From contig JACRTY010000021.1 of assembly GCA_014305025.1 (NCBI GenBank), positions 1 to 64,000 on the forward strand: DNA of 64,000 nucleotides, written 5' to 3'. Shown one piece after another: positions 4,962 to 48,178 of this stretch. The stretch's first letter is position 1; every line of letters begins with the position of its first letter. Made by a program: the position numbers and the translations under genes. Below the pieces are notes generated by a model that worked only from the letters and a program-made list of their open reading frames with translations, made no database searches and was not told the origin of the DNA. This stretch comes from Candidatus Nyctobacter psychrophilus (GTDB taxonomy: Bacteria; Vulcanimicrobiota; Vulcanimicrobiia; Vulcanimicrobiales; Vulcanimicrobiaceae).

Positions 4962-5034
4962 GGATTCCCTTTCGTAGTTCGTGGTCGGAATGTCGAGCAA
5001 CGCCACGGCGGGTGGCAACGTTTCGCCAAGCGGC

Positions 5035-31769: not shown

Positions 31770-33302
31770 TTACGGCTTAGGCGGCGCGGCGACCGGTTGC
31801 GGCGAGGCCACGGGCGGCGGAGACGGTGCGCCATGCGGTGCGTAGTCGACGACTTCGATGACACCGGCGCCCGAAACGGCTCCGTTGTCGTCGCGGCCAT
31901 AAACGTACACGAACGTTTTCTTGGGCGTGGTGACGAGGAACTCGTAGCCGGTACTCGGCGGCCGGCGATCCACGTTCAACAGCTTGTACGTTCGCGGCCC
32001 AAAAGCGGCCAGCGCCCGGAGCGCTGCGCGATGTGCCGGTTGCATGCGGGCGCGCGCGTCGGGGCGCATGCGAGCGAGATCGACATGTCCGGCAACAGCC
32101 TCATCGAGCCAACGCTCAGCAGCGGCCGTTACGGCAGCATTTGCCCCGGCAACCGGTTTTGCCGCCGCACTCGGTCGCGGCGATGGTGAGGCCGGACGCG
32201 GCGAGGGAACCAGCACATTATAGACGGCACTAACGGCGCTGTTGTAGTCGAATGCGCCGCTGTTCGCCAGCACCATGATGTTGAGATCGTCGTCGGGAAA
32301 GCGCGCATCCTGGCTAGCGGCACCGGTCGTATTACCTCCGTGGGAAACCATGCGGTGGCCATTCTCGAGCTTGGATACCATGATCGCAAAGCCGTAGTCG
32401 GGGAATGCGGCGCCGATTTTGACCGGCGTCATCATCTCCGTGAGCGACCGCTTAGACAACAGTTTGCCGCCGTCGAGAGCCGCGTTCCACTTGGCCAGGT
32501 CTTGCACGTTGCTGATGATGGCGCCGGCTCCGGCGAACCACGTGTAGTCGATATGCAAGGCGTGTTCCCAGGGCCCGAGCGCAAAGGAGTCATACTCGGT
32601 GGCGACGTTGGGTTGCGTATCGTCGGAATCGCGCACGTAGGTCGACGTCATGCCCAGCGGCGTGAAAATTCGGCGCTGCAGAAAATCTTTATACGACATA
32701 CCGGACACGCGCTCGATCACCATCGACAGCAATTCATAGCCGGTGTTGGAGTACTGGCGGTTTTTGCCGGGGACGAAGGCGAGCGGACGTGAGTCGACCG
32801 TCCCGACGACGTGGGCCAGCGTCGCCGGGCGGTTGCCAAGTTCATCGAAGGTCTGGATTTCGGTGTACTCGGCGTAGCCTCCGGAGTGGTTCAGAAGATT
32901 GCGTATCTTTACGTCGCGCGAGTGAGGAATTTCAGGAAGATATTTCGAGAGCCGATCGTCGACGTTGAGCTTGCCTTCGTCCTGCAGCATCAAGATCGCA
33001 GTCGCGGTGAACTGCTTCGTATTGGAGCCGATCGGATAACGCGTGTCCGGTGCGGCCGGTACGGCGTTCTCGACGTCGCGATCGCCGAAGCCCTTGGCGT
33101 ACACGATGGAACCGCCCCGAGCGACGGCAATCGTGACGCCGGGAGTGGCCGTGCCGGCGACGGAACGCCGCCCAATCTCGTCGATCGCCGCGCTTTGCGC
33201 CGCGGTTAAACCGGTTTGCGGCGCTGCTGGGGTCTGGGCGTGCACTCCGGCGCCCGAACAAAGAATCGCAATAAGCATCGACAGGGTCGCAATACGCTTC
33301 AT
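31770..33302 (-). CDS. Secreted serine hydrolase (beta-lactamase / D-aminopeptidase class C fold) 1
   Basis: Penicillin-recognising serine hydrolase of the class C/DD-peptidase fold. A signal peptide ends near GAGVHAQ (residue 22). The active-site motifs are GSNTKQF (S-x-x-K), QYSNTGY (Y-x-N) and SHGGNTTG (H-G-G). A C-terminal domain of about 120 residues with Pro-rich linkers and a Pro-rich tail follows. Relatives include D-stereospecific aminopeptidases, DD-carboxypeptidases and esterases, all acting on D-amino-acid-containing or similar substrates; which one cannot be told. It is the last gene of the minus-strand block led by the TonB-dependent receptor, 63 bp after a paralogue. Confidence 0.8.
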   Translation of the reverse strand: MKRIATLSMLIAILCSGAGVHAQTPAAPQTGLTAAQSAAIDEIGRRSVAGTATPGVTIAVARGGSIVYAKGFGDRDVENAVPAAPDTRYPIGSNTKQFTATAILMLQDEGKLNVDDRLSKYLPEIPHSRDVKIRNLLNHSGGYAEYTEIQTFDELGNRPATLAHVVGTVDSRPLAFVPGKNRQYSNTGYELLSMVIERVSGMSYKDFLQRRIFTPLGMTSTYVRDSDDTQPNVATEYDSFALGPWEHALHIDYTWFAGAGAIISNVQDLAKWNAALDGGKLLSKRSLTEMMTPVKIGAAFPDYGFAIMVSKLENGHRMVSHGGNTTGAASQDARFPDDDLNIMVLANSGAFDYNSAVSAVYNVLVPSPRPASPSPRPSAAAKPVAGANAAVTAAAERWLDEAVAGHVDLARMRPDARARMQPAHRAALRALAAFGPRTYKLLNVDRRPPSTGYEFLVTTPKKTFVYVYGRDDNGAVSGAGVIEVVDYAPHGAPSPPPVASPQPVAAPPKP

Positions 33303-33365
33303 GATTATCCTCCTAGAGTTTGACTTGGTAGAACCGGTGCGTTAGCTTGGCGTGCCGTGGCGGAC

Positions 33366-34892
33366 TCACGATTTCTCGGCGACGCGGGGAAAGACCATGC
33401 TCGGATCGTTTGCGACGCTGACGCTGGTAACGTCACCGTGCGGGCCGAGCTCGAACGTGATCAGTTGCTTCGCGTCCACGGGGTTGTCGTCGATCAAGCG
33501 AAACGTATCGAAGTTCCAATGCTCGAGTCTGCCGTTCATCCCGAGCATGTGGAAGCGCAAACCCTTACCGTCGTTTGGGACGAGCGCGTCACCGTAGACG
33601 TCGTTACGGTATGTCCCGGCGTAGCGCTCGAGCGCCAGTGATGGGAGGGTCCCCTTGACGCGCTGCGCATCGAACTTCTTTTGCGCCGCCGTGAGGCGGT
33701 CGAAAACACCATGAAACGACTTTAGGATGCTCGCGCCCTGATCGGTTGCGCTGCCGCCGAGCACGTCGTCGAAGGCTTGATATATCACGGCGTTTCCGAG
33801 AAAGTCGTCACCCTTGTTGGTCAGGATCGTGACGCCGAGATGGCGCTCGGGAAGCATCGACACGAGCGCGCTCATCCCATCGATGTTGCCGGCATGTTGA
33901 ATCGCCTTCTGGCCGCGGTAGTCGAACAGAATCCAACCCAACCCGTAATCGAGAAAGTGGGAAGCCGGCGCGTAGAGCGTCCACGGAAACGTCAGCGGCA
34001 TGATCGTTTGCGGCGTGAACATTTCGGCGACCGTGCCCTCCCGCAACAGACGCCGCCGGCCGTAGGTGCCGCCGTCGAGCAGCATCGCGATCCAGTGCGC
34101 CATATCAACCGCGTTCCAGTTGATTGCACCGGCGGGTGCGATATCGTCGATGTTACGGTAAGGGACCGTTCGCAGCGTTCCGTTGACCGTCTCATGCGGC
34201 TGTGCTACGTCAGGCCGGCCGGCCAGCGCGCGAATCGACGTAGTACTGGACGTCATGCCGAGCGGCGTAAACAGGCGTTGTTGCACGAAGGTGTCCCAAC
34301 TCTGCCCCGTAACCGGCGGGATGATTTCACCCGCAGTCAGGAGCATCAAGTTGTTGTACTCGAACTTACTACGGAAACTCCACGTCGGCTCTATGTAACG
34401 GATGCGGCGTACGATATCGTCACGGCTCAGGCCGGAGCCGTACCACAGCGCATCGCCACGCAAAAGGCCGCTACGGTGGGTGAGCGCGTCGCGAATCGTA
34501 AGCTCGCGAGTGACGTAGGGATCGTACATCTCAAACCACGGCAAGTGCTTGGTGATGCGGTCGTCCCAGGCGATTTTCTTTTCGTCGACGAGCATCCCCA
34601 GTGCCGCAACGGTAAACGCTTTCGAACTCGAACCGATTGCGAAAAGCGTCTGCGCGTCGACTAAGGCGGGTCTGCCGAGCGCGCGCACGCCGTACCCTTT
34701 GGTATACGTGTGGCCATTCTCGACAATAGCGATTGAAACACCCGGTACGTTCCAGTCCTTCATGGCCTGCGTCACGTACGTGTCAAACGCCGGCGAAAAG
34801 AACGAAGGCTCGGGGTCGGCCGCCACCTGCGCCGGCAGACCGGCGACGGTAAGCGCGAGCGCACACAGCGCCATCATGAACCGGGGGGTCAT
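33366..34892 (-). CDS. Secreted serine hydrolase (class C fold) 2 with DUF3471-like tail
   Basis: Signal peptide to about residue 25. The catalytic motifs are GSSSKAF (S-x-x-K), EYNNLML (Y-x-N) and QHAGNIDG (H-x-G). The N-terminal part NVPGVSIAIVENGHTYTKGYG is typical of the family. From about residue 395 a DUF3471-like domain (LERYAGTYRNDVYGDALV) follows, as in many such peptidases. The role may be release of D-residues from peptides or cleavage of cell-wall peptides. It lies 22 bp after the XRE-cupin regulator gene and 63 bp before a paralogue. Confidence 0.8.
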   Translation of the reverse strand: MTPRFMMALCALALTVAGLPAQVAADPEPSFFSPAFDTYVTQAMKDWNVPGVSIAIVENGHTYTKGYGVRALGRPALVDAQTLFAIGSSSKAFTVAALGMLVDEKKIAWDDRITKHLPWFEMYDPYVTRELTIRDALTHRSGLLRGDALWYGSGLSRDDIVRRIRYIEPTWSFRSKFEYNNLMLLTAGEIIPPVTGQSWDTFVQQRLFTPLGMTSSTTSIRALAGRPDVAQPHETVNGTLRTVPYRNIDDIAPAGAINWNAVDMAHWIAMLLDGGTYGRRRLLREGTVAEMFTPQTIMPLTFPWTLYAPASHFLDYGLGWILFDYRGQKAIQHAGNIDGMSALVSMLPERHLGVTILTNKGDDFLGNAVIYQAFDDVLGGSATDQGASILKSFHGVFDRLTAAQKKFDAQRVKGTLPSLALERYAGTYRNDVYGDALVPNDGKGLRFHMLGMNGRLEHWNFDTFRLIDDNPVDAKQLITFELGPHGDVTSVSVANDPSMVFPRVAEKS

Positions 34893-34914
34893 GGGCGGAC
34901 TCGTATCCTGTACG

Positions 34915-35514
34915 TCACATATGGGCCGTCGTCAAGCCGATCGCGCTGGCGGCCCGCGCCGAATCGTTGCGTAGCGTATGCGCGTAGGCCGCCGAATAGA
35001 CGGCGCACTGACCGGCGTGCATCGAATAATCGACCTCGTTCACGCGTAGCACGACTTCTCCCGACGTCACGTACAGTATGTCGACTCCTTCGTGCGTCAG
35101 TTCGTCCCGGAATCCGCAGCGTGGGTCGAACGCCATAACGGCAACTTCCAGATTCACGCCGGGAAGGCGAAGCAATTCGTAGCGGACTCCTTTGCCGCGA
35201 TTGAACATCGTTCGATCCGACCTTCCGACGAAGCTCGGCCGCGAAAGGCGCGCGCTGTAGCCCAGCATCGAACCGAGATCTTGATCGAAGAACTCGGCGA
35301 TGCGCGCGAGGCGGCCGATCGAGACGTCGGATTCGCCGCGTTCGACGGCGCTCAAGAATGATGCGGATAGCCCGCTCCCTTCAGCGACGTCGCGGATCGA
35401 CAGCTTGCGTGAAAGACGCATGCGTTTGAGGATCTGGCTGACGTTGGGCGCACCGCGGAAGGCCGGTTCGCCCTCTTGATTACGGCGCAGGGCTCTTGTC
35501 GTGCGGGCTGGCAT
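34915..35514 (-). CDS. XRE-family regulator with C-terminal cupin domain
   Basis: 199-residue transcription factor. A helix-turn-helix (about residues 25-80: ILKRMRLSRKLSIRDVAEGSGLSASFLSAVERGESDVSIGRL, partly shown here) is followed by a cupin sensor domain (about 115-190: YVTSGEVVLRVNEVDYSMHAGQCAVY). Members of this class sense small ligands such as amino acids and control nearby catabolic genes. Embedded between the epimerase gene and a serine hydrolase gene on the same strand, it is the best candidate local regulator of the D-amino-acid block. Confidence 0.85.
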   Translation of the reverse strand: MPARTTRALRRNQEGEPAFRGAPNVSQILKRMRLSRKLSIRDVAEGSGLSASFLSAVERGESDVSIGRLARIAEFFDQDLGSMLGYSARLSRPSFVGRSDRTMFNRGKGVRYELLRLPGVNLEVAVMAFDPRCGFRDELTHEGVDILYVTSGEVVLRVNEVDYSMHAGQCAVYSAAYAHTLRNDSARAASAIGLTTAHM

Positions 35515-35626
35515 CGGTCGCGCGCTCCTTCCGGCATATCGATCGACGACCGAAATTTCGGTCGGTGTGCCCGCTTCTCAACCGTATCCGCGCCTCCTGG
35601 CGCAGCACGCCTCACCGAAAACAGAT

Positions 35627-36649
35627 TCATGCAGCCTCCGGCGATTCGGACGGATGCACGCCCAGCCCGCAACCGTGCGGCATCACCAGATGCCCTCCCT
35701 CGAAGCGCACGCCCGAGAACGGATCGTGCGCGAGGACGGTCGGTCCGTCGATGTCGAGCCAATCGGTCAGCGGACCAAGATGCGCAGCCGCCGTCGCCAG
35801 AATGCTGCTCTCGGCCATGCAGCCGATCATGACTTTGAAGCCGAGCGCGCGCGCGGCCGCGATCATGTCGTAAGCGGCGCCCAAACCGCCGCACTTCGCC
35901 AGCTTCACGTTGACGGCGTACACAGAGCGGAAGAGAGGGCCGAGCTGCGATGCTTCAACGGCGTCTTCGTCGGCCATGATCGGAATCGGGGAGCGTTCGC
36001 TGATCCACCTCAGCTGCTCGGGGTTCCCCGCTGGAATGGGCTGCTCACAAAGCTCGATATCGAAACGCTCGAGTTCGTGAAGGATCGCCACGGTCTGTTC
36101 GGCGTTCCAGCCTTCGTTCGCGTCGATGCGGATGGCACCGGTATACATCGACCGAATCGCTTCGATCAGCGCGACGTCATCAAAGCCGGCCGCACCGACC
36201 TTTATCTTCAGCGCCGGCGTGTCGCGCAAGAGTCGTACGCGCGCCAGCACCGTGTCCACGTCATCTTCAATCGGAACCGTCAGCGAGGTCGGCGGACGGT
36301 CGAGGCCTTCGAGTCCCAGCAGCTCGCTTACCGACGCGCCGAGCACCTTCCCGCGCAAATCGAAGAGCGCGATGTCGAGCGAACAGCGAGCCGCTCGCGG
36401 TACGCCTGCCAGTATCCGCGCCGCACTGAATGGTCCCGCATCGGCGGGCAGTTTGTATGATGCGAAGTACGCCATGATTGCCGCCACCGAATCGCCGTAG
36501 CGTTCGAGCGGCGCGGACTCACCGTATCCGACGTAATCGTTCCACGCGATGCGCGCGACAACGGTGTTGGCAGCGGTGAGCGTGAATCCGGCGACGCGAA
36601 ACGGCCGTGTCAGCGGCATCTCGCACTCGCGTACGTCGAGCGTCATCAT
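35627..36649 (-). CDS. dgcA: Dipeptide epimerase / N-acyl-glutamate racemase-like enzyme (DgcA-like)
   Basis: Enolase-superfamily enzyme of the muconate-lactonising group. Catalytic and metal residues are visible in order: LKIKVG (K-x-K), RIDANEGW, ELCEQPI, IMADED and VNVKLAKCGG, plus GCMAES, typical of Ala-D/L-Glu epimerases. 340 residues; ATG 36649 overlaps the DUF1611 stop by ATGA. Next to a DUF1611 gene the best match is DgcA of the dgcN-dgcA pathway, in which N-acetyl-D-glutamate is converted to N-acetyl-L-glutamate; the alternative is L-Ala-D/L-Glu epimerase (YcjG) in murein recycling. Both fit a role in D-Glu use. Confidence 0.75.
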   Translation of the reverse strand: MMTLDVRECEMPLTRPFRVAGFTLTAANTVVARIAWNDYVGYGESAPLERYGDSVAAIMAYFASYKLPADAGPFSAARILAGVPRAARCSLDIALFDLRGKVLGASVSELLGLEGLDRPPTSLTVPIEDDVDTVLARVRLLRDTPALKIKVGAAGFDDVALIEAIRSMYTGAIRIDANEGWNAEQTVAILHELERFDIELCEQPIPAGNPEQLRWISERSPIPIMADEDAVEASQLGPLFRSVYAVNVKLAKCGGLGAAYDMIAAARALGFKVMIGCMAESSILATAAAHLGPLTDWLDIDGPTVLAHDPFSGVRFEGGHLVMPHGCGLGVHPSESPEAA

Positions 36650-37743
36650 GCCGGCGTTCTCGCTCGGTCGGCACGCCGCGCCGCTTTCTCCGTCGTCCCG
36701 AGCGCCCGCGCGATTGCGCGCCACAGCGCCGTGCCGCCGTCGCGCACCGGATCGGCGACCGGCAACCCAGTCTCTCGTTCAGCGGCAGCCAGCAGCGCCG
36801 CGGCGGCGGAATCCTCAAACGCTGACGTATCAAGGACGATCGCGATCACGCGCGCCGGCTTGACGCGTGCGAGGATCGCTTCATGTTCGCGCACGAGTTC
36901 GGATAACGGCGGAATCGACGTCGAGAAACCGGCGATGTGTTGCATGGGTGGACGATGACAGAGCACCAGGGCGTCCGGCGCACTCCCGTAGAGGAGGCCG
37001 AACGTTACCGGCGCGTACGCGGGGTGAAAGATCGCGCCTTGCCCTTCGACCAGCAGCACCTCGGAGTCGGGCCGCGCTTGCACGACCAGTTGCTCCGCAG
37101 CGCCGGTCACAAAGTCCGAGATCACGCGGTCGACGGCAATCCCGCCGCCGGCAATCATGATGCCGGTCTGGCCGGTGGCGAGGAACTCCGCGCGAACGCC
37201 GTCCGCCCGCGCGGCGCGCTCGACTTCCAGCATCGCGGTCATCTTGCCGACCGCGCAATCACTGCCGACGGCAAGCACGACGTCCGCGGCGGCATCATAG
37301 GCAGCGCCGCTAAAAAGCGGGATGTCCACCGGTGGTACGCGCACGTCCCACAGACGCGAACCCGAGCGCCGCGCCGCTGAGACAATCTCCGGATCGTCGG
37401 CGATCAGCTCGTGCAGACCGCTGACGATCTCGAGACCGGCGCGCGCGGCCGCCACGATCGGTCCACGTAAGGCGGACGGAATACGGCCGCCGTCGGTTGC
37501 GACCCCGACCAACAGCGACGTCGGCCGATACGCCAACGCCGCTTCCAGATCGGGCACGATCGGAGCGTCGCTTGCGATGGAGGGAAGCACCTCGTTCACG
37601 CGACGGCCCGCCAGCGTGGAATCGATGATGACGGCAACGTCGGCGGCGCGGAAGCGCAGTACTCCGTGCGCCGTCTTCCCATACATGCCGAGCAGCAGTC
37701 CTTCGGTCAAAACGGCGTAGCGACGCGGGTACACGCCTTGCAT
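36646..37743 (-). CDS. dgcN: DUF1611 P-loop protein (DgcN-like D-glutamate N-acetyltransferase)
   Basis: 365 residues of the DUF1611 family: an N-terminal Rossmann-like domain (about 1-130) and a C-terminal P-loop domain with Walker A VGSDCAVGKMTAML, then GQTGIMIAGGG and VEGQGAIFHPAY. A described member, DgcN, makes N-acetyl-D-glutamate in a D-glutamate catabolic pathway and is paired with the epimerase DgcA. Here the two genes overlap by ATGA, supporting that reading. Whether this protein uses D-glutamate has to be inferred. It starts 1 bp after the stop of a serine hydrolase gene. Confidence 0.7.
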   Translation of the reverse strand: MQGVYPRRYAVLTEGLLLGMYGKTAHGVLRFRAADVAVIIDSTLAGRRVNEVLPSIASDAPIVPDLEAALAYRPTSLLVGVATDGGRIPSALRGPIVAAARAGLEIVSGLHELIADDPEIVSAARRSGSRLWDVRVPPVDIPLFSGAAYDAAADVVLAVGSDCAVGKMTAMLEVERAARADGVRAEFLATGQTGIMIAGGGIAVDRVISDFVTGAAEQLVVQARPDSEVLLVEGQGAIFHPAYAPVTFGLLYGSAPDALVLCHRPPMQHIAGFSTSIPPLSELVREHEAILARVKPARVIAIVLDTSAFEDSAAAALLAAAERETGLPVADPVRDGGTALWRAIARALGTTEKAARRADRARTPA

Positions 37744-37744
37744 C

Positions 37745-39649
37745 TCAGTAGTGCACGTTGAAATTTGCGAGACCGAACGCGAGAACGAGCCAACTGAAGC
37801 CGATGCCTGCGAGCGCCGGCAACGTCTCGGCGATTTTCGCCAATAGACTTCGCCTCGTGCTTGTCCACGTAACGACGGCGTTGGCGATCATGCCGATCGC
37901 GCCGATGGCGCAGACGATGCCGAGGATGTACAGCAGATACAGGATGACGTCCGGAATATGGGCCTTATCCACGGCTGATACAAAAGCGACCCACCCGGCG
38001 AGGTCAAGGATGCCGGCGGCGCAGGTGAGCCGCGTAACAAGTCGCAACCGCGCCGCCCGCCCAGTCAACGCGAGCGGTTTCTGGTAGTAGCGCCGAACGA
38101 GCGCGCCGATCGGCCATACGATGAGCGTAATCAGAAACGTCAGCAGCGCAAACCCGCCGAGCCATTCAATGACGTTCATTTGCTGCCAGAACGATACCGG
38201 CTGAAAAATCTGCACCGGCTGCGAGTCATCCGTCGTCAGGTAATCGATGCGATCGCCCTTGCGAACGAAGATCAACCGAGCCGGACCGCCGATCTCGCGG
38301 TATGTGAGAGGCCCTACCTCACGCCACAGCTTGGGCTTTGCGGCCGGCGTTTGGAGCGGCGAAAAGGCGATCGTGCCGTCGGGTTGCGCGGTGACGTGAC
38401 CCTCTCCCATCAGGAACACGAGCGGAAAAGCGTTCTGTTCGCGCCGCGAACTCAAGTACCACCCTTGTACCATCTTGGCATCCGACGCTGCGCTGGGAAC
38501 CGCCCGTTCCGTCACGGTCCGGAAGGGAAAATAGCGGTCCAGAAACGCGCGGAACAGTTCGGTACGAATACCCTCGACGGCCCCATCTTTGCCTACGCTG
38601 TTGAACGACACAAAAAAACCAAGGTTCTTGTCCAACACGAGATGGAGATCGCTGTGAAACGCGTTCGTGTCTCCGGCGTGACCGATGATCTGCAAGCCGT
38701 TGCTATTCTCCTGATAGAAACCCAAATCGAACCCGTTGAGACCCGGGTCCTCCGTATGTGACAGGGTATGCATGAGCCGGGCAGTTTGGGGCTTCAGTAT
38801 CCGCGCACTGCCGAACCGCCCATCCTGGAGTTGCGCGATCATGAAGTTCGACATATCGGTCGAAGTGCTGCTCAGCGAGCCGGCCGCGGAGACTTGAATG
38901 TACTCAAACGGGTACGCGGGACCGCTGCCGACCACATAACCCTTCGACAAAAAAGGCGCGAGAGCCGGCGGCAAGGGTTGCCGCATCGTTGAATGATTCA
39001 TCCCGAGCGGCCGGAAAATATCTCGTTCGATGTAATCGTCGTACCGCTGACTGGAAACGCGCTGAACGATGTACCCCGCGAGCGTCGCTCCGTAATTCGA
39101 ATATGCGACCACCGCTCCAGGTGCATAAATCCGCCGCGGCATGTGCGTTCGCAGGTACGTCCCGAGCGGCTCGAGTTGGGCCGCGCTCTGATCGAATTCG
39201 TCTTTGAAGGTCTCTTCGAACCCCGCCGTGTGCGTCATCAGATTGCGAAGCGTGATCGGCCGCCCGAATGCGGCCGGAATCTTGAAATCCAAGTAGCCAT
39301 TGACGTCGCTATCCAGGTCGAGCTTGCCGCGCTCAACTTGTTGCATGACCGCGGTCCATGTGAACAATTTTGAGATCGACCCGGGCCGGAATAACGTCGC
39401 GTTGGTTACCGGGCGACGCGCTGCGACGTCGGCATAGCCGTAGTTGCGAAGCGTTAACACCTTGCCGTCCTTTACGACGGCGACCGTTACACCGGCAATG
39501 TCGGCGCGAGAGATCGATACGGGCAGGAACCCGTCGAAAAAGGCGTTGACGTCCGTCGCCGTCAGTGCCGGCGCCTCCGAAGCGCTTACCGCGAAGCCCG
39601 GACTCAAGCCCAAGCCCAGCGCGAACAACGCGGCAGCAAGGCGCGTCAA
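37745..39649 (-). CDS. Serine hydrolase (class C fold) with C-terminal membrane domain
   Basis: 634 residues. A signal peptide (about 1-24), then the penicillin-binding-like catalytic domain with PGSISKLF (S-x-x-K), AYSNYGA (Y-x-N) and GHAGDTNA (H-x-G). A middle beta domain (about 390-470) and four to five C-terminal membrane segments (about 490-634) follow. The active site would face the periplasm or exterior while the protein stays in the inner membrane. The order next to the TonB-dependent receptor (11 bp upstream) and dgcN (1 bp downstream) suggests it cuts an imported D-residue peptide. Confidence 0.8.
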   Translation of the reverse strand: MTRLAAALFALGLGLSPGFAVSASEAPALTATDVNAFFDGFLPVSISRADIAGVTVAVVKDGKVLTLRNYGYADVAARRPVTNATLFRPGSISKLFTWTAVMQQVERGKLDLDSDVNGYLDFKIPAAFGRPITLRNLMTHTAGFEETFKDEFDQSAAQLEPLGTYLRTHMPRRIYAPGAVVAYSNYGATLAGYIVQRVSSQRYDDYIERDIFRPLGMNHSTMRQPLPPALAPFLSKGYVVGSGPAYPFEYIQVSAAGSLSSTSTDMSNFMIAQLQDGRFGSARILKPQTARLMHTLSHTEDPGLNGFDLGFYQENSNGLQIIGHAGDTNAFHSDLHLVLDKNLGFFVSFNSVGKDGAVEGIRTELFRAFLDRYFPFRTVTERAVPSAASDAKMVQGWYLSSRREQNAFPLVFLMGEGHVTAQPDGTIAFSPLQTPAAKPKLWREVGPLTYREIGGPARLIFVRKGDRIDYLTTDDSQPVQIFQPVSFWQQMNVIEWLGGFALLTFLITLIVWPIGALVRRYYQKPLALTGRAARLRLVTRLTCAAGILDLAGWVAFVSAVDKAHIPDVILYLLYILGIVCAIGAIGMIANAVVTWTSTRRSLLAKIAETLPALAGIGFSWLVLAFGLANFNVHY

Positions 39650-39660
39650 AGCGATTGAAC

Positions 39661-42555
39661 TCAGATCTTATACTGAAGCGAGGCCCGCAGGGTTGCCGGA
39701 CCGTAGTTACCTCCGTCGGTGGTGCCCACGTACCCCGTCTTGGCGCCATGCGCGCCGTTTACGAGCGGAATGGGTACGCCGTCGAAGTAGCCGAAGTACG
39801 CTTGATTATAGGCTCCGGTCAAGTTGTCGCCCGAGAATTGCAGGGACGCGTTGGGAGCGAGCGGCACGCGGACGGCCGCGGACGCGACGCCGAACGCCGG
39901 GCGGTTGAAACTGTTGTTCGGACCATAGTACGTCAGCCCGAGGTTGGCATAGAGCCCGTGCAGCGTGCGGAAATTCAACTCCCCATAGCCGGTGCTGTAC
40001 GGGACGCGTCCGACCAGGCCGTTATAGCCAAGCCCGCTTGGTTGAAAGTTGGCGCCTGAAATGATGGCGAGGTTGGTCGTGTACGGTCCTACGGCGGTGT
40101 CATAAAAACCCGCCGGAAGATTGTACGGATAGCCGCGTTGTAACGCACCCTGCAGCTTGAAGCCGTAGCCGGCAAGCGGCGCGTTTTGGAGCGCGAGCTC
40201 GAAGCCCTCATAGCGCGCAAACGCCAGGTTCCGGGTTTGATTGATGAAGAGCGGAAGCGGTTTGCCGCCGCTCGCCGCGCTCGCATACGTTCCTTGTTGG
40301 AACGTCGAGGGTAAGAACAAGTCGTGCAGGTTCGTCAGGTACACGTCGGTCGATAGCGACATACTGCGCATGATGCGCTTGTCGAACCCGAGATCGTACC
40401 CGAAGGCCGTCTCGGGCTTGATGTTTCCGTTGTTGGTATTGAGATTGAAGTACGTCGCCGGCACGGAATTCGGCTGCGGTATCTGGGCCGGCGCCGAAAG
40501 CAAGTTGATATAGGGCGGGGCGATCGACGAGCCGAGCGCGAAGCGCCACGAGACATCGACGTTCGGACGCCACAAGAGCGAGAGACGCGGCGCATCGAAG
40601 GCATGGGTGGAGTCCTGGAACGTAACGCCGCCGTCGCCCGTGTAATGGCTGGTATATTGGATCGCGTAGTTGCTGATCGTCGTCGTCAGACGCGGCGTCA
40701 CGGCAAATTGGCCGCGAGCCAGAATCGTCGTGAACTGTTGCCCGGAACCCGGTGCGAGTTGGTAACCGACGACGCCGTCAACGGGGGCGTCTTCGGTAAA
40801 GATCGAGTCGTGGTGCGACCGATCGAACGCGAGCGTAATGAGGTTGCCGGCAATCGGCTCGTCGAGCTCGAGCGAATATCCCCGCAGATGGTCTTGATGT
40901 AAGGTGGTAAGCTGCGCATCCCCCGACGTGAACGACGTCGGTTGCCCGTTGAAATACGTCGGCGTCGGCGCTGCACCGTCGGCGCATGTAAGCGTTGAAA
41001 AGCTGAAGGCAACACCGACTCCGCAGAGAGCCGCTCCGCCCCAGGCATTTCCGGAAAACGATTCGTTGGTCGCCTGCTGGAAGTCGTACAGGTATTGATT
41101 GTCGGTACCGGCGTAATACCGAGCCAGGATCGTCGTCTTGCCGAGCGCGCTGCGCAGCTCGCTTTGGAATAGGCTTTGCTGGATCGAATTACGCAACGGA
41201 AGATTCGCGACGAGATCGAACGGAATCCCCGTGCCGGCGGGCACCGAGCCCGTGTACCCCGGAGGCGGCGCAAAACTTGAGAAATTCATGTACGATCCGA
41301 AAGGCGTCAGCGAACTCGCTTGTACGCCCGTCTGATCACTCGAACTTTGAGCGCCGAGGTAGCTGACCGTCAGCGCCGTTTGCTGAGATAAGTTGAAGCG
41401 TAGCTTCGCTAGCTCAGCGCGATTCAAGTACTGGGTGTTCAAGTTGTAGCAGCACACATAGATCGGTGGGGCAAAATACACTTCACCCGGCAGGCCCGCG
41501 TACTGCGGAGTCTTCGATGCTACCAAGCCGATGGGGCTGCCCGCAAATCCGCGCCCGTTGATGAAATACGGCGCCGCCCCGTAGTCGAGCGGCAGCTGCG
41601 AGCCCGCGACCGGGTAGTTGTGGAGCGGTCCGGGCGTACCGTTGAGGGCATACGCAAACGCGTAGTCGATCAAGTGCGTGGGGGTGGAGCCCGTGATGCG
41701 CACGCTCGGTGAGGTGCCGCCATAGTTGTCGATGCCCAGCTCAACCGCGGAGTGAAAGGTTCTCGTCGGCTCGAGCGTACGGTAATTGACGCTGCCGCCG
41801 ATCGCGTAGTTGATATCGGTTCCCTGGACCCCGGGGCCCTTTCCGATTTCAACGTCTTGTAAAAGGGCCGGATTGAGGTACAGCGGCGCAAAATAGCCGT
41901 CCGCTCCGACCGAGACGGGGTGGCCGTCGACAAGCGTCTCGGTTTCGTACGGCAGCGCCCCACGGATTTGCGGTATCACCGGCGTCGCTTGATCCGAGCC
42001 GTTGAAAAAGCCGCTGCGCGAGGCGACGATCCCCGGCGTTTCGTTGAGAATCTTCGTGACCTGTTGCTGTCCCTGATCGACGAACGCCTGATTCGAAATC
42101 ACCGCGATGGCGCCCGGGCTCGTGTTGATGATGGCGCGGCCGGGCGCGTTCGTCGAGACACGCCCGATCAGCCGTAGCGACGAGAACGACGACGCGACGA
42201 GCTGCGCGTTTACCGTAGCGGTTGAACCGGCCAGGACCGCCACATCCTCCTGCCGCGTCTCTTGAAATCCCGCCTTGGTAATCGACAGAACGTAAACGCC
42301 CGACGCAACCGACGCAAACCGGAATGCTCCGCCGGCGTCGGTCGACGTAGACTGACGGGTGGGTCCCACCAAGGTCACGCCGGCGCCCCGGACGGGAGCA
42401 CCGTCGCTCGTCGAAACGGTTCCGCTAACGGACCCGCTCGAGGCCGACGCCGTCTGACCAAATGCGGCCTGGGTTCCGAGACCCAGGCACGTGGCCGCAA
42501 GTGCGACCGATACTACCGCCGCGCGCCACCGTTTCCATCCGAACTCGTGTATCAC
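39661..42555 (-). CDS. TonB-dependent outer-membrane receptor with carboxypeptidase-like N-terminal domain
   Basis: 964-residue outer-membrane transporter. I choose GTG 42555 because GGAGGCG lies at ideal distance; an upstream start at 42603 has no support. After a signal peptide (about 8-37) comes a CarboxypepD_reg-like domain (SVSGTVSTSDGAPVRGAGVTL), then the plug (NTSPGAIAVISNQAF, QVTKILNETPG) and a 22-strand-type barrel ending ATLRASLQYKI. Receptors of this build import large or scarce solutes, such as peptides or siderophores. It is the first gene of the minus-strand D-amino-acid block. Energy would come from the TonB system at 1.2-3.5 kb or another elsewhere. Confidence 0.88.
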   Translation of the reverse strand: MIHEFGWKRWRAAVVSVALAATCLGLGTQAAFGQTASASSGSVSGTVSTSDGAPVRGAGVTLVGPTRQSTSTDAGGAFRFASVASGVYVLSITKAGFQETRQEDVAVLAGSTATVNAQLVASSFSSLRLIGRVSTNAPGRAIINTSPGAIAVISNQAFVDQGQQQVTKILNETPGIVASRSGFFNGSDQATPVIPQIRGALPYETETLVDGHPVSVGADGYFAPLYLNPALLQDVEIGKGPGVQGTDINYAIGGSVNYRTLEPTRTFHSAVELGIDNYGGTSPSVRITGSTPTHLIDYAFAYALNGTPGPLHNYPVAGSQLPLDYGAAPYFINGRGFAGSPIGLVASKTPQYAGLPGEVYFAPPIYVCCYNLNTQYLNRAELAKLRFNLSQQTALTVSYLGAQSSSDQTGVQASSLTPFGSYMNFSSFAPPPGYTGSVPAGTGIPFDLVANLPLRNSIQQSLFQSELRSALGKTTILARYYAGTDNQYLYDFQQATNESFSGNAWGGAALCGVGVAFSFSTLTCADGAAPTPTYFNGQPTSFTSGDAQLTTLHQDHLRGYSLELDEPIAGNLITLAFDRSHHDSIFTEDAPVDGVVGYQLAPGSGQQFTTILARGQFAVTPRLTTTISNYAIQYTSHYTGDGGVTFQDSTHAFDAPRLSLLWRPNVDVSWRFALGSSIAPPYINLLSAPAQIPQPNSVPATYFNLNTNNGNIKPETAFGYDLGFDKRIMRSMSLSTDVYLTNLHDLFLPSTFQQGTYASAASGGKPLPLFINQTRNLAFARYEGFELALQNAPLAGYGFKLQGALQRGYPYNLPAGFYDTAVGPYTTNLAIISGANFQPSGLGYNGLVGRVPYSTGYGELNFRTLHGLYANLGLTYYGPNNSFNRPAFGVASAAVRVPLAPNASLQFSGDNLTGAYNQAYFGYFDGVPIPLVNGAHGAKTGYVGTTDGGNYGPATLRASLQYKI

Positions 42556-42593
42556 TGCTCGCCTCCACGCACAAAAGCGCCGAGTTACAACTT

Positions 42594-42616
42594 TTTTTCG
42601 CACACTGTGCGAAAAA
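42594..42616. promoter_or_regulatory. 23-bp perfect palindrome in the divergent promoter region
   Basis: Two 11-bp arms (TTTTTCGCACA and TGTGCGAAAAA) flank a single central C. The palindrome lies 39 bp upstream of the receptor start and 139 bp upstream of the S9 peptidase start, so it lies between divergent blocks of the locus. It suits a dimeric repressor or activator. As RNA from either strand it would also make a strong hairpin, but termination makes no sense at this spot. Confidence 0.65.
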
Positions 42617-42681
42617 CCGTGCCGCAGCGTTCTTCGAAGCCTCGCCGACTCCTTTCCCTCCTGAAATTATCGACATTTTCG

Positions 42682-42726
42682 ATTGAGCGGGATTTCGTTC
42701 GCTGTACGCAATATTGTACTAGCGTT
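42682..42726 (+). repeat. Duplicated upstream element, copy A
   Basis: This stretch matches 44924-44967 closely: both read TTGAGCG..AT.TCGT..G.TGTAC..AATAT.GTA over about 40 bp. Copy A ends 28 bp before the S9 peptidase start. The core GTACGCAATATTGTAC is partly palindromic. It is probably a common promoter/operator that co-regulates the two adjacent genes. In both copies the element is open in frame with the gene behind it and would encode MS.IS..V.NIV if a TTG start were used. Confidence 0.65.
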
Positions 42727-42754
42727 GTCGCCGACAAAGCGTCTGGAGAACTTT

Positions 42755-44869
42755 ATGAAGCAATGCTCTGCGTTGGCGCTCGTCATCTGCGCGGGCGTGC
42801 TTGGCACGGCGTCCGCCGGTGCAGCCGTGAGGCGCTTCAGCATCGACGACGTTTTGAGCGCGCCCTATCCCGCTGATCTGGGGGCCTCGCTCGATGGGAA
42901 AGCGTTGCTTTGGACCGTGCACGAGCGGGGAGCACGGAACGTGGCCGTTTGGAAAGACGGCACCGTCCGACTGGTCACCCACAACACGGCCGATGATGGT
43001 CAGGACCTTTCGGATCCGCAGTTCACGCTCGGTGCAACGGCCGTGCTCTACGCACGCGGCGGATCTGATGAGAGCGACAGTGCGGAAGGGCCCAATCCCA
43101 ATCCACTGTCCCTGGCCGAACCCCCGCCGCGGCGCATCGCCATCAGCTCGCTCTCCAGCGGCCGCACGTTCGAGATCGGCGAAGGCACTCGTCCCGTGCT
43201 GTCGCCCAAGGGTGACCGCGTCGCATGGGAGGCGCACCGTCAGATCGTCGGCGCGACACTCGCGTCGGGCGACGGCGGTGCGACGTGGACGGTCGGTAAA
43301 CCGCAGCCGCTGTTCACGGTACGCGGTACGGCAGGCGGCATCGTCTGGTCGCCTGACGGAAGCCGCCTGGCGGTCACCGTCACGCGCACCGACCATTCAT
43401 GGGTCGCGGTCTACACGCTGGGGACGAGCAACGTCGTCTTCGCGGCGCCCGCCTTCACCCTCGACAGTGATCCGGCGTGGTCGCCCGACGGCACGCGCGT
43501 CGCATTCATCCGGCAACCGGGTCCGCGTTTGAGCGTTAGCGAGGTTTACGACGCACCGCCGGCCGCACCGTGGTCGATCGTGGTCGCCGATGCGCGCAAC
43601 GGCAGCGGGCGCCCCATTTGGACTGCGGCGCGCGGAACCGGACACGTCTTTGCTGCCGACTGGAGCGCGCCGTACCTGTGGTGGTCGCGCGACGGTGACC
43701 GGATCGCGTTTCTGTCAGAACAGACCGGATGGTTGCACCTCGACGCCGTCTCGCCGCAGGGCGGTCCCGCGCACGACCTTACGCCGGGACGTTTCGAGGT
43801 CGAGCAAGTCGCGCGCGCCGGCGACGGCGGCGCGTTAGTGTACAGTTCGAATGCCGGCGACGTCGACCGCCGCCATCTGTGGCGTGTCGCCTTTTCAGGC
43901 GGCGCGCCGCAGCGCCTGAGCGACGGCAACAGCAGCCAGTGGTCGCCCGTGCCGCTGGCCGGAGGCTCGCTGGCATTCATCGACGCCGCCTATGCCGATC
44001 CACCGCAGGTAACGCTGACGGCGGGCGGCGCTACCCGCGAACTCGTCGCGGTCTCCGTACCACCGGAGTACCCGCGCGATGCGCTCGTGCAGCCGCAGGT
44101 CGTCACTTTTCGCGCCGCGGACGGGCTGTTGATTCACGGACAACTTTTTCTTCCGCGCGACCGTGTGCGCAGACATCCTGGGCTGATCTTCGTTCATGGC
44201 GGCCCCCCGCGCCAGATGCTGCCGGGCTACCACTACATGGAACCCTATGCCAAGCTCTATCAGCTCAATCAAGCGCTGGTCAATCGGGGCTTCGTCGTCC
44301 TGTCGATCAATTATCGCAGCGGCATCATGTACGGCCACGATTTTCGCGAGGCACCGCGCACCGGTTGGCGCGGCGCCAGCGAGTATCAGGATGTGCTCGC
44401 CGGCGCCGCGTTTCTGCGCGTACGCCGCGACGTCGACAAGACGCGCCTGGGCATCTACGGCCTCTCGTACGGAGGCTACCTCACCGCCCTGGCACTCGCC
44501 CGTAACTCCGACATCTTCGCGGCCGGGGCCGATCAGGCCGGCATCAGCGATTGGCCTGCATCGTTCGATACCGATTTCGGCCATCGCGTCGGCACGCCCG
44601 CGCAGCGCCGTATCGCTTTCGATGCGTCCCCCGATGCCTCACTGTCCCGCTGGCGTTCGCCACTCTACCTTTCGCAAGCCGACGACGACCGCAACGTGCC
44701 TTTCAGTCAGTCGATCGATCTCGCGACGCGCCTCCAGTCGCGCGGCATCGGCGTCACGCAAGCGGCCGTGCCCGACGACTTACACGCCTACGTTCTCTAT
44801 GCCCACGAGTTAACTCGCTTTGAGCAAACCGCCGATTTCTTGAGCACGCGCCTGCACGCTCCGGATTGA
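42755..44869 (+). CDS. Secreted S9-family peptidase (prolyl oligopeptidase fold)
   Basis: 704 residues with ATG 42755 after GGAGAA. A signal peptide (about 1-23), a beta-propeller of PD40/WD-like repeats (for example WSPDGSRLAV, AWSPDGTRVAF, WWSRDGDRIAFLS), and a C-terminal alpha/beta-hydrolase domain with nucleophile GLSYGGY, acid in SQADDDRN and histidine in DDLHAY. Enzymes of this group (DPP IV/acylaminoacyl peptidase-like) cut short peptides, often from the N-terminus. It heads the plus-strand half of the locus, followed by a peptide-binding lipoprotein and a D-aminoacylase. Confidence 0.88.
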   Translation: MKQCSALALVICAGVLGTASAGAAVRRFSIDDVLSAPYPADLGASLDGKALLWTVHERGARNVAVWKDGTVRLVTHNTADDGQDLSDPQFTLGATAVLYARGGSDESDSAEGPNPNPLSLAEPPPRRIAISSLSSGRTFEIGEGTRPVLSPKGDRVAWEAHRQIVGATLASGDGGATWTVGKPQPLFTVRGTAGGIVWSPDGSRLAVTVTRTDHSWVAVYTLGTSNVVFAAPAFTLDSDPAWSPDGTRVAFIRQPGPRLSVSEVYDAPPAAPWSIVVADARNGSGRPIWTAARGTGHVFAADWSAPYLWWSRDGDRIAFLSEQTGWLHLDAVSPQGGPAHDLTPGRFEVEQVARAGDGGALVYSSNAGDVDRRHLWRVAFSGGAPQRLSDGNSSQWSPVPLAGGSLAFIDAAYADPPQVTLTAGGATRELVAVSVPPEYPRDALVQPQVVTFRAADGLLIHGQLFLPRDRVRRHPGLIFVHGGPPRQMLPGYHYMEPYAKLYQLNQALVNRGFVVLSINYRSGIMYGHDFREAPRTGWRGASEYQDVLAGAAFLRVRRDVDKTRLGIYGLSYGGYLTALALARNSDIFAAGADQAGISDWPASFDTDFGHRVGTPAQRRIAFDASPDASLSRWRSPLYLSQADDDRNVPFSQSIDLATRLQSRGIGVTQAAVPDDLHAYVLYAHELTRFEQTADFLSTRLHAPD

Positions 44870-44923
44870 CGGAATAAAAGCGATTAGCTCGTTCGTTCCA
44901 GGAGGAGCCGAAGCAGCGTTCGA

Positions 44924-44967
44924 ATTGAGCGACATATCGTCGGATGTACAGAATATCGTAGAGCCGT
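44924..44967 (+). repeat. Duplicated upstream element, copy B
   Basis: Second copy of the element at 42682-42726, with the same spacing of TTGAGCG, TGTAC, AATAT and GTA. It lies at the apparent 5' end of the substrate-binding protein gene. If it is a promoter, the true coding start of that gene is further downstream than the open frame suggests. Confidence 0.65.
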
Positions 44968-46598
44968 GTCGTTTCTCCAGTAGCAAGTCTCGCGTCCGCA
45001 CCGCGCTGTTTGTGCTGCTGCTCGTCGCATGTGCGCCCGGCTGCACCCGTGCGCCGGGCGGCCCGGCCGGTGCGCGGCTGATCGTCGCGCAAGCGCAAGA
45101 GCCCAACTCACTCAACCCGCTTTTCATGACGGGACCAACCGTTGCCGGCGTTGCACCGCTAATTTATTCGGGTCTCGTGACCATCGACGAACACGGCCGG
45201 ATACGCCCGCAACTTGCGACCAGCGTCCCGTCGCTTCGCAACGGCGGCATCTCGCGTGACGGGCTGACGATCACCTACCGGCTACGGTCAGGCGTGCGCT
45301 GGCAGGACGGCGCACCGCTGACCGCCGCCGACGTCGCCTTTACATACGCGGCGATCATGAATCCAAAAAACAACGTTCCGTCTCGCTTCGGCTACGAAAC
45401 GATCCGCAACGTCGAAGCCGTCGGCGACCGGATCGTTCGCGTGCACCTGCGCCAGCGTTACGCGCCGATTTTATCGCTCTTCATGGGCCCCGATCAAAAC
45501 TTTTCCGTTCTGCCGCGTCATCTGCTGGCGTCTTACCGAGATCTCAACGCGGCTGCGTTCAATGAAATGCCGGTGGGCTCGGGCCCGTTTCGAGTTGTCG
45601 CGTGGGCACATGGCGATCGCCTGCGCTTGGTACGAAATGCCGCATACTTCGGCGGTACGCCGCAGATCGCCGAGATCGATTTGAAGTTCGTTCCCGACTC
45701 ATCCGCAGTCCTCAATCAGTTGCGTACGAGAGAAGTCGGCGCGGCATTCTTCGCCGACCCCTCGTTCCTGGACGCCTATGGACGCTTGCCCAAAAGCCGC
45801 GTGGTCCGCGTGCCTCAAAACGGCTTCGGCGATCTTCTGTTCAACACGCAAGCACCCGCAGTTTCAGACGCCCGGGTCCGGCGCGCGTTGATCGAATCGC
45901 TCGACATTCCACGCCTGGTGCACAACGCCACGAAGGGCGCGCAGACGGCGAAAGATGCGGGCCGCGGGCTCTTCACTTGGGCGTACGATCCGGCAATCGC
46001 GCCACCGCGCTACGATCCGCCGGACGCCGCGCGACTCTTCGCCTTGACGGGATGGCATCGCGGCCCCGACGGTGTGCTTCGCGAGAACGGCCGGGCGCTC
46101 GCACTCGACCTCGCGTTTCCGAGCGGCACCGGCGTAGCGAGCGCAATCGCCGTCGACCTGCAACAAGAACTGCGCACTGCCGGCGTTATGCTGACGTTGC
46201 GCGCGTACACGCCGACCCTCTTTCGCGCCCCCGCAGCAGCCGGCGGTCCGCTTTTCGGCGGCAAGTTTGCGCTCGCGTTCTTCGAACCGTTCGGCGTCAG
46301 CGACCCCGATACGCATTGGTATTTGGGTTGCAGCGAGATACCGCCGCACGGGTTCAACGCGCAGCGTTTCTGCGATCCGGCCATCGAACGGGCACTGGCG
46401 CTGGGAGCGAGCAGTTATGACCCGGCAATACGGCGACGCTCCGCCGTGCTCGTTCAGCAGCGCGTCGCCGCCGAACTTCCTTTCGTTCCGCTGTATCAGA
46501 CCAATGCCGTCGACGTTTTCCCAAACGACCTTCACGGTTTCCGCAGTTCGGCGCTGTCGCCGTTCTGGAATGTAGCAGACTGGACGCTGTCACGGTAA
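44925..46598 (+). CDS. Oligopeptide-binding lipoprotein (SBP_bac_5, ABC transporter)
   Basis: Extracytoplasmic solute-binding protein for peptides or related solutes. A lipoprotein signal (TALFVLLLVACAPGC) ends in a lipobox cysteine about residue 39 of this frame. The mature part has family features: IVAQAQEPNSLNPLF, YSGLVTID, LRSGVRWQDGAPLTAADVAF and the DxxxR-rich C-terminal lobe. The N-terminal 13 codons from TTG 44925 coincide with a duplicated regulatory element, and GGAGGAG lies too far upstream, so the real start is unclear and may be downstream. No permease or ATPase genes are nearby. Its stop is overlapped by the next gene. Confidence 0.85.
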   Translation: MSDISSDVQNIVEPCRFSSSKSRVRTALFVLLLVACAPGCTRAPGGPAGARLIVAQAQEPNSLNPLFMTGPTVAGVAPLIYSGLVTIDEHGRIRPQLATSVPSLRNGGISRDGLTITYRLRSGVRWQDGAPLTAADVAFTYAAIMNPKNNVPSRFGYETIRNVEAVGDRIVRVHLRQRYAPILSLFMGPDQNFSVLPRHLLASYRDLNAAAFNEMPVGSGPFRVVAWAHGDRLRLVRNAAYFGGTPQIAEIDLKFVPDSSAVLNQLRTREVGAAFFADPSFLDAYGRLPKSRVVRVPQNGFGDLLFNTQAPAVSDARVRRALIESLDIPRLVHNATKGAQTAKDAGRGLFTWAYDPAIAPPRYDPPDAARLFALTGWHRGPDGVLRENGRALALDLAFPSGTGVASAIAVDLQQELRTAGVMLTLRAYTPTLFRAPAAAGGPLFGGKFALAFFEPFGVSDPDTHWYLGCSEIPPHGFNAQRFCDPAIERALALGASSYDPAIRRRSAVLVQQRVAAELPFVPLYQTNAVDVFPNDLHGFRSSALSPFWNVADWTLSR

Positions 46599-48178
46599 AG
46601 TTCGTCATCGCGGGCGGTACCGTCGTCGATGGCACGGGAAAGCCCCCCGCGCCGCACGACATCTACGTCGTCGACGGAATGATCGAGAGTGTCCGGGCAC
46701 ATTCCGATTTCCATGCCGACTGGAACGTCGTTGACGCTAATGGCTTGACAGTCACACCGGGATTCATCGACGTGCATTCGCATGCCGACTTCGGTCCGTT
46801 CTTGCACGACGACGACACGACGAAGGTACTGCAAGGCGTGACGACTGAAGTCGTCGGGAATTGCGGCATCAGTTTGGCGCCGACGACTTCCGAGCGCCGC
46901 ACTCTGCTGGCCTCGGCGTTCGAGCCGCGCCTATCCGAGTTGGAACCGAGCGACGGTTCGTTCGCGCAGTACCTCGCCGCCATGGACGAGCGCGGATACG
47001 TTACGAATTTCGCGCCCCTCGTCGGCCACAACACGCTTCGCATCGCCGCGCTCGGCATGGAGGCCCGCGAACCGACGGACGATGAGCTCGCGCAGATGGG
47101 CAAGATGCTTGAAGAAGCGCTCGACGCCGGTGCCTTCGGGCTCTCGACGGGATTAATCTATCCGCCGGGAACCTTTTCCGTGACGAGCGAGATCGTCGCA
47201 CTTGCCGAGCGCTTGCGACCCAACACGCTGTATACGTCGCATCTGCGTAGTGAGGCCGACGCATTGTTGGAAGCCGTCGCCGAAGCCCTGCACGTCGGCG
47301 AAAGCACGGGCACACGCGTGCAGATTTCACACCACAAAGCGGCCGGGCGTTCCAACTGGGGCAAGACGCGCGAGTCACTCGCGCTCATCGCCGCGGCTCG
47401 CGCACGGGGCGTGGACGTCCATCAAGACGTCTACCCGTACCTTGCCGGAAGCACGTCACTGCGCGCTGCGCTCCCACCTGAATTTCACGCGGGCGGAGCG
47501 GAAGCGACGTTGGCACGACTCCGCGACGATACCGCACTGTCGAAGCTAGCGGCTCGAATTGCGGACGGTGCCCCCGGGTTCGAAAACCTCGTCAAACAAG
47601 CGGGCTACGATGGCATCCTAATCGCGACGACGGCCAGCGGTCGCTTCGAAGGCATGACGCTGAGCGAGGTCGGGCACGAGCTTGCCGTCGACCCATTTCA
47701 CGCGCTCGTGCACGTGCTCGTCCAGGAGCGGCTCGAAGCGACGATGACCATCTTTTTGATGAACGAAGGCGACGTCGAACGCGTCATCACCGACGCGCAC
47801 ACCGCCATTGGCTCCGACGGCGCTTACGCGGGCAGCGGGGGCAAGCCGCACCCGCGTCTTTTCGGCACCTTTCCCCGCGTGCTCGCGCGCTACGTCCGCG
47901 AACGCCGCACCCTCTCCCTGGGAGCGGCCATCCATAAGATGACCGCCCTCGCCGCGCACATCTTCAGGTTACCCGATCGCGGAACGCTGGCCGCAGGGCA
48001 GATCGCCGACATCGTGGCCTTCGATGCCGACACCATCAGCGATGATCTCGATTATCGTGATCCGGTCCGAGCGCCGAAGGGCATCGCATGGGTCATGCAG
48101 GGCGGCCGGACGGTCGTGCAAGGTCACTCTTACATCGGTGCCCGCAACGGCGAACGCTTGCGCCCGGCACCGGCATAG
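46580..48178 (+). CDS. N-acyl-D-amino-acid deacylase (D-aminoacylase)
   Basis: Amidohydrolase-superfamily zinc enzyme that frees D-amino acids from N-acyl forms. Motifs: GGTVVDGTG, PGFIDVHSHADF (HxH), TEVVGNCGISLAP (the metal cysteine), STGLIYPPGTFS, SHHKAAGRSNWG and AIGSDGAYAGSGGKPHPRLFGTFPR. The open frame has no ATG, GTG or TTG before 46679, yet the family N-terminus (KFVIAGGTVVDGTG) is encoded from about 46597. CTG 46580 is the nearest plausible start and overlaps the end of the binding-protein gene. It fits a scheme that yields free D-Glu or D-Ala from acylated residues. Confidence 0.85.
   Translation: MDAVTVKFVIAGGTVVDGTGKPPAPHDIYVVDGMIESVRAHSDFHADWNVVDANGLTVTPGFIDVHSHADFGPFLHDDDTTKVLQGVTTEVVGNCGISLAPTTSERRTLLASAFEPRLSELEPSDGSFAQYLAAMDERGYVTNFAPLVGHNTLRIAALGMEAREPTDDELAQMGKMLEEALDAGAFGLSTGLIYPPGTFSVTSEIVALAERLRPNTLYTSHLRSEADALLEAVAEALHVGESTGTRVQISHHKAAGRSNWGKTRESLALIAAARARGVDVHQDVYPYLAGSTSLRAALPPEFHAGGAEATLARLRDDTALSKLAARIADGAPGFENLVKQAGYDGILIATTASGRFEGMTLSEVGHELAVDPFHALVHVLVQERLEATMTIFLMNEGDVERVITDAHTAIGSDGAYAGSGGKPHPRLFGTFPRVLARYVRERRTLSLGAAIHKMTALAAHIFRLPDRGTLAAGQIADIVAFDADTISDDLDYRDPVRAPKGIAWVMQGGRTVVQGHSYIGARNGERLRPAPA

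Follow-up and report, generated by a model that had tools for sequence, protein, structure and literature searches.

We analysed positions 1 to 64,000 of contig JACRTY010000021.1 from Candidatus Nyctobacter psychrophilus, a 64,000-nucleotide stretch (the window) that is part of a 313-kb contig in a 3.2-Mb genome. At 31770-48178 it carries a locus of ten genes that probably serves the use of D-glutamate-containing peptides (Table 1). The first-pass annotation had named these genes, their places and their strands, and our Pfam and NCBIfam profile searches recovered all ten, arranged as two head-to-head operons. From the divergent centre, the minus-strand operon encodes a TonB-dependent receptor, the class C serine hydrolase C, DgcN, DgcA, an XRE-cupin regulator and hydrolases B and A, in which successive genes are first 11 and 1 bp apart, then overlap by 4 bp (dgcN/dgcA), and are further separated by 112, 22 and 63 bp. 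The plus-strand operon encodes an S9 peptidase, an SBP_bac_5 peptide-binding lipoprotein (SBP5) and a D-aminoacylase-family deacylase, in this order. Three of the 11 matches to PF00144 (class C) in the genome fall within this 7.7-kb stretch, the block recurs in relatives at dgcN genes of a second clade, and its partners are enriched near dgcN in Caulobacterales (see below); together these observations indicate that the clustering exceeds chance.

Table 1. Features of the divergent locus and their basis
Feature	Position	Strand	Basis and remarks
Class C serine hydrolase A, secreted	31770..33302	-	Pfam; motifs SNTK, YSN, HGG
Class C serine hydrolase B, DUF3471 tail, secreted	33366..34892	-	Pfam; motifs SSSK, YNN, HAG
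XRE-family regulator with cupin sensor domain	34915..35514	-	HTH_3 + Cupin_2 (Pfam)
DgcA-like enolase-superfamily epimerase/racemase	35627..36649	-	MR_MLE domains (Pfam); NF042940; motifs
DgcN-like DUF1611 protein, putative D-glutamate N-acetyltransferase	36646..37743	-	DUF1611_N + DUF1611_C (Pfam); NF041892; P-loop
Class C (PF00144) serine hydrolase C, secreted, C-terminal hydrophobic (membrane) tail	37745..39649	-	Pfam, 211 bits; signal peptide and tail from sequence
TonB-dependent receptor, N-terminal carboxypeptidase-regulatory-like domain, predicted outer-membrane import	39661..42603	-	Pfam CarboxypepD_reg, Plug, TonB_dep_Rec
Candidate operator TGTACNNAATATNGTA, copy 1	42703..42718	+	52 bp before S9 ATG
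S9 prolyl-oligopeptidase-family peptidase, secreted	42755..44869	+	Pfam Peptidase_S9, DPPIV_N
SBP_bac_5 peptide-binding lipoprotein	44925..46598	+	Pfam; lipobox LVAC; start TTG 44925 or later
Candidate operator TGTACNNAATATNGTA, copy 2	44945..44960	+	5′ end of SBP5 gene; inside its reading frame if start is TTG 44925
D-aminoacylase-family amidohydrolase, no signal peptide seen	46592..48178	+	3gip and 1m7j matches; motifs

In the overlapping gene pair, a DUF1611 gene adjoins an enolase-superfamily racemase gene. The DgcN-DgcA route converts D-glutamate to N-acetyl-L-glutamate (PMC12363236, PMC10845958, PMC11747546); our literature search found no publication treating DUF1611 together with an epimerase. 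The DgcN-like protein of the window retains the P-loop GSDCAVGKMT, and the DgcA-like protein retains KxK, D, E, D and K, that is, the two catalytic lysines and all three metal ligands, as well as a DxD motif after barrel strand 8. Its closest solved structure is 3iji, followed by L-Ala-D/L-Glu epimerases (including 1jpd and 1jpm).

Most genomes of the class carry a core copy of dgcN, which in this genome lies at G000:C8:64513-65544. The core block, represented here by L080 9648-15319 and elsewhere by core loci among L061-L091, consists of dgcA, dgcN and an SBP5 gene, with a C39-like peptidase next in both loci checked. It is independent of the accessory locus, and we are not aware of any account of what it does in this phylum. 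Separate from the core copy, the window dgcN groups with nine other second copies in one clade (bootstrap 100, SH-aLRT 98); this accessory paralogue is present in 10 of about 100 dgcN-bearing genomes. With open reading frames in the compared loci chosen by codon scoring, nine of the ten second-clade loci have a TonB receptor, a class C hydrolase, an XRE-cupin homologue, dgcA and SBP5 nearby, and the tenth lies at a contig edge. Around core copies the picture differs: class C hydrolases were found near 1/31 (second clade 9/10), TonB receptors near 5/31 (9/10), XRE-cupin homologues near 0/31 (9/10) and M81 metallopeptidases near 0/31 (5/10), while dgcA and SBP5 are common near both. Relatives of the window's receptor lie beside second-clade dgcN in nine of the ten loci, and near homologues of its SBP5 are likewise found beside second-clade dgcN. 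The order of the genes is shuffled from locus to locus and their content kept, a pattern that speaks for selection acting on the set. The first-pass annotation had made its reading depend on co-occurrence in related genomes, and the genes do recur around second-clade dgcN in the class as well as in a second phylum. Other arrangements were also seen. In one genome (G005, L086/L092), dgcN lies directly downstream of a dihydrodipicolinate synthase (DHDPS)-family gene with no adjacent dgcA; the region also contains an SBP5 gene together with genes for a TonB receptor and a deacylase. L097 carries an FAD-dependent DAO-family oxidoreductase (4557-5822) that is flanked by class C hydrolases, with a TonB receptor and SBP5 close by; this enzyme is perhaps a D-amino-acid oxidase standing in for DgcN.

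A new observation is that sister loci carry, in place of the deacylase, an M81 metallopeptidase most similar to microcystinase C. The deacylase belongs to the block in the window and in G090, and M81 is found instead in G049, G029, G025, G009 and G089; in G006, an additional dgcN fragment has an M81 gene next to it. This alternation of two candidate enzymes for D-glutamate release is, like the gene content, the motifs and the conserved clustering, directly observed. M81 matches were obtained for 10 of 110 relatives, weak in one case, and for no control genome out of 14; a genome search showed it to be absent from the window's own genome. The glutamate at the Adda-Glu bond of microcystin has the D configuration. 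MlrC cleaves only this bond of linear microcystins, and its D, H and H ligands have been shown to be essential (PMC4810221). The sister-locus protein of L038 (2901-4346) matches microcystinase C (7ylq) over its full length (E 3.4e-97), and the M81 proteins of the sister loci retain these zinc ligands (D-x-H and H). The deacylase of the window is closest to N-acyl-D-glutamate deacylase 3gip (E 4.6e-83), slightly ahead of D-aminoacylase 1m7j (1.9e-78). It matches the D-aminoacylase family across the fold and has the HxH, Cys, His/Lys and Asp motifs of that family in the form of HSH, GNCG, SHHK and GSDG. In BbDam-type N-acyl-D-glutamate deacylase, Arg295 binds the gamma-carboxylate (PMC12017989).

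The association extends to other phyla. Despite its rarity, M81 lies near dgcN in Eremiobacterota, Caulobacteraceae, Steroidobacteraceae (L044, about 5 kb away) and one planctomycete (L041, about 1.7 kb). The Caulobacteraceae locus L042 combines a TonB receptor, dgcN, dgcA, three class C hydrolases and two M81 genes, and the Sphingomonadales loci L043 and L048 have a TonB receptor, a class C hydrolase and dgcA; L048 also has an M19 dipeptidase. A dgcN relative was present in 57 of 249 Caulobacterales genomes, and we set the surroundings of 60 of these copies against 20 control stretches taken from the same genomes. Several windows come from close relatives, which makes every P value optimistic. 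Enriched near dgcN were dgcA (54/60 versus 0/20), class C hydrolases (36/60 versus 1/20, P 9e-6), deacylase-like proteins (27/60 versus 0/20, P 6e-5), TonB receptors (45/60 versus 6/20, P 5e-4) and M81 (10/60 versus 0/20, P 0.046); for M19 (8/60 versus 1/20) the enrichment was not significant. M81 and a deacylase-like protein never occurred together in a Caulobacterales dgcN window (P 0.0012). The Caulobacterales deacylase-like proteins that were scanned fall in or near NF006560, like that of the window, but lack GNCG; two of eight score far above the cut-off and six at the level of the window protein. The amidohydrolases of L045 and L047 had been read as the window's deacylase, a reading that we softened since both lack GNCG and SHHK.

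The folds of the proteins are evident from the sequences. All three hydrolases of the window retain the class C (S12) motifs SxxK, YxN and H/KxG, the last in the HxG form. The top solved relative of hydrolase A is alkaline D-peptidase 4y7p (E 2.3e-44), which is also among the nearest relatives of hydrolase C together with 2qmi, 7spn and 9sn1; the closest to SBP5 is the oligopeptide-binding AppA (1xoc). The S9 gene lies in a 728-amino-acid open reading frame opening at TTG 42683, with the signal peptide following ATG 42755. As read from the sequences, the receptor, the hydrolases, the S9 peptidase and SBP5 carry export signals and no such signal was seen on DgcN, DgcA or the deacylase, a distribution that fits the compartments of the pathway proposed below. 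The genome has at least nine SBP_bac_5 matches and a single OppC-type permease match, so that a shared permease is likely. Relatives of the receptor followed by conserved large open reading frames also occur without dgcN (L098, L105, L109 and L110), with SBP5 adjoining in L098 and L105; these are possibly further peptide-uptake loci.

The XRE-cupin protein, which shows weak similarity to PuuR, is the obvious candidate ligand of two putative operators. Their sequence, TGTACNNAATATNGTA, has exactly two matches in the 3.2-Mb genome when up to one mismatch is allowed, and the reversed-pattern control has none. A scan of related loci did not recover the element at the corresponding genes, and we therefore make no claim of a regulon. 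Both copies lie within an imperfect repeat of about 36 bp (42683-42719 and 44925-44961, TTGAGCG...TGTACxxAATATxGTA), which could alternatively reflect an N-terminal peptide, MSxISxxVxNIV, common to two unrelated proteins. Local inverted and direct repeats are mostly composition noise. Outside the block, a FecR/DUF6600 gene has 30-bp tandem repeats close to its 3′ end (31356-31685), which give a proline-rich tail.

From these data we infer, with a probability of roughly 0.6, that the locus serves the utilisation of peptides containing D-glutamate. The TonB receptor would carry a peptide or fragment across the outer membrane, and in the periplasm the class C hydrolases (D-peptidase- or DD-carboxypeptidase-like) and the S9 peptidase would trim it, before SBP5 passes the short product to an Opp/Dpp-type permease presumably encoded elsewhere. 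In the cytoplasm, the D-aminoacylase-family enzyme, or the M81/MlrC-like metallopeptidase in sister loci, may cut the X-D-Glu amide bond. The released D-glutamate would then be acetylated by DgcN, and DgcA would turn N-acetyl-D-glutamate into N-acetyl-L-glutamate; alternatively, DgcA may epimerise an L-Xaa-D-Glu dipeptide directly. The XRE-cupin protein probably controls both operons. All substrates, and the steps of the route as physiology, are predictions from sequence. The first-pass annotation had proposed import and breakdown of peptidoglycan fragments or D-residue peptides. Co-occurrence supports this proposal, and the nearest solved relatives are in keeping with D-residue chemistry: alkaline D-peptidase for hydrolase A, N-acyl-D-glutamate deacylase for the amidohydrolase, dipeptide epimerases for DgcA and microcystinase C for the sister M81. 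We would narrow it, as the common denominator looks like D-glutamate-containing peptides rather than D-peptides in general. Muropeptides, as the commonest source of D-glutamate, are the first candidate substrate, and cyanobacterial or other nonribosomal peptides are possible; the sequence does not distinguish among muropeptides, microcystin-like peptides and other D-glutamate peptides.

Several points weigh against this interpretation. The DgcN-like and DgcA-like assignments made at first pass stand as regards domains, adjacency and racemase residues. The profile scores fall short, however: the proteins reach 253 bits to NF041892 (DgcN; equivalog cut-off 480) and 216 bits to NF042940 (cut-off 400), and both therefore remain "-like". 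Some sister-locus DgcA proteins score 344-361 against the same cut-off of 400. The DxD motif was dropped as a discriminator between dipeptide epimerases and DgcA and cannot separate substrates, because it occurs in both kinds, including one DgcA above the cut-off. The class C fold also covers esterases and beta-lactamases, and no permease gene lies within the ten-gene cluster. For the protein annotated as an N-acyl-D-amino-acid deacylase, family match and motifs hold and the start is problematic. The conserved N-terminus can be read in the same frame starting at about 46601, ahead of the first ATG (46679), with no in-frame ATG, GTG or TTG before that ATG; the conserved start position (46592-46600, compared with L094) holds a GTA overlapping the SBP5 stop. 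Furthermore, the D-aminoacylase fold includes GlcNAc1A deacetylases (PMC12017989). Finally, the neighbourhood counts take in related genomes and hence are not independent, and TonB receptors are frequent in control windows too.

Among the alternatives, the idea that the cell recycles or remodels its own peptidoglycan fares best, though we consider it unlikely. SBP5 and the epimerase would then act like MppA and YcjG on murein tripeptide, a pairing in line with the matches to 1jpd and 1jpm, and the class C proteins would be endogenous DD-carboxypeptidases. Housekeeping recycling is indeed a good fit for the class-wide core locus of dgcA, dgcN, SBP5 and the C39 peptidase; however, this genome already has that core copy, the window copy is accessory, recycling does not need a TonB receptor, and the block lacks any amidase, LdcA or NagZ-type gene. 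Slightly less probable is the detoxification or use of one specific D-residue natural product, microcystin-like or another nonribosomal peptide, in which the class C and M81 proteins would be the counterparts of MlrB and MlrC. Published work places MlrB among the class C-like serine hydrolases (PMC12474180), and the full-length match and essential ligands of the sister M81 point the same way, but the lack of M81 in the window's genome and of an MlrA-like gene among the ten proteins of the block speaks against it, and the variation of hydrolases between loci suggests a broader substrate range. General scavenging of peptides or esters without D-residue specificity, with DgcN-DgcA present by chance of operon assembly, seems a little more doubtful still: the S9 and SBP5 families are broad, many class C proteins are esterases and TonB-SBP5 pairs exist without dgcN (L098, L105), yet dgcN and dgcA are repeatedly associated with class C hydrolases, deacylase or M81 across phyla. 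Supply of D-glutamate for wall synthesis, which the two reactions would yield if run in reverse, is rejected as most improbable, given a glutamate racemase (TIGR00067) in this genome and nearly all relatives.

Utilisation of D-glutamate peptides would matter beyond this genome. D-glutamate is locked in nearly all bacterial walls and several nonribosomal peptides, and its recovery from peptides by soil and aquatic bacteria is poorly described. The conserved set would constitute a complete, testable route from the outer membrane to N-acetyl-L-glutamate, would give M81 peptidases a natural role beyond microcystin degradation, and offers a guess at the physiology of a phylum that has otherwise received little study. 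More tentatively, and with the odds somewhat against it, the loci might form an unnamed, widespread class of TonB-linked D-glutamate-peptide loci in Eremiobacterota and Proteobacteria, in which DgcN-DgcA is combined with an exchangeable D-glutamate-releasing hydrolase (D-aminoacylase type, M81 or M19) and the mlr microcystin pathway is one specialised offshoot.

The murein-peptide genes mppA-mpaA-ycjG of Escherichia coli share with the block a peptide-binding protein and an L-Ala-D/L-Glu epimerase-like enzyme, but the block lacks an MpaA-type amidase and has the TonB receptor, class C hydrolases and DUF1611 in addition. A known operon pairs peptide uptake with a D-residue hydrolase, as the window does, and its strain has DgcN and DgcA and grows on D-glutamate and peptidoglycan; its hydrolase is of another family, however, and neither DgcN/DgcA nor a TonB receptor has been described in the operon. 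With the mlr cluster (MlrABCD) the window shares the class C SxxK serine hydrolase of the MlrB kind, here in three copies, and sister loci share M81, the MlrC kind. In contrast to mlr, the window's genome has no M81, the predicted uptake is of the SBP/ABC type where mlr has the MFS permease MlrD, and DgcN-DgcA and the TonB receptor are added. MlrA, a CAAX-type endopeptidase, is absent from the block's ten proteins, the part of the genome that was searched for it. The locus falls outside the mlr family, two of whose enzyme kinds nevertheless occur in sister loci; our literature search found nothing relevant joining TonB, mlr and D-glutamate. The closest relation is to the DgcN-DgcA pathway of marine bacteria (EC 2.3.1.312, 5.1.1.25), with which it shares a DUF1611 gene adjoining and overlapping an enolase-superfamily racemase gene. 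The window proteins differ in scoring below the equivalog cut-offs, and the pair sits among genes for a TonB receptor, class C hydrolases, an S9 peptidase, SBP5 and a deacylase. We regard the locus as a broader variant of the DgcN-DgcA system.

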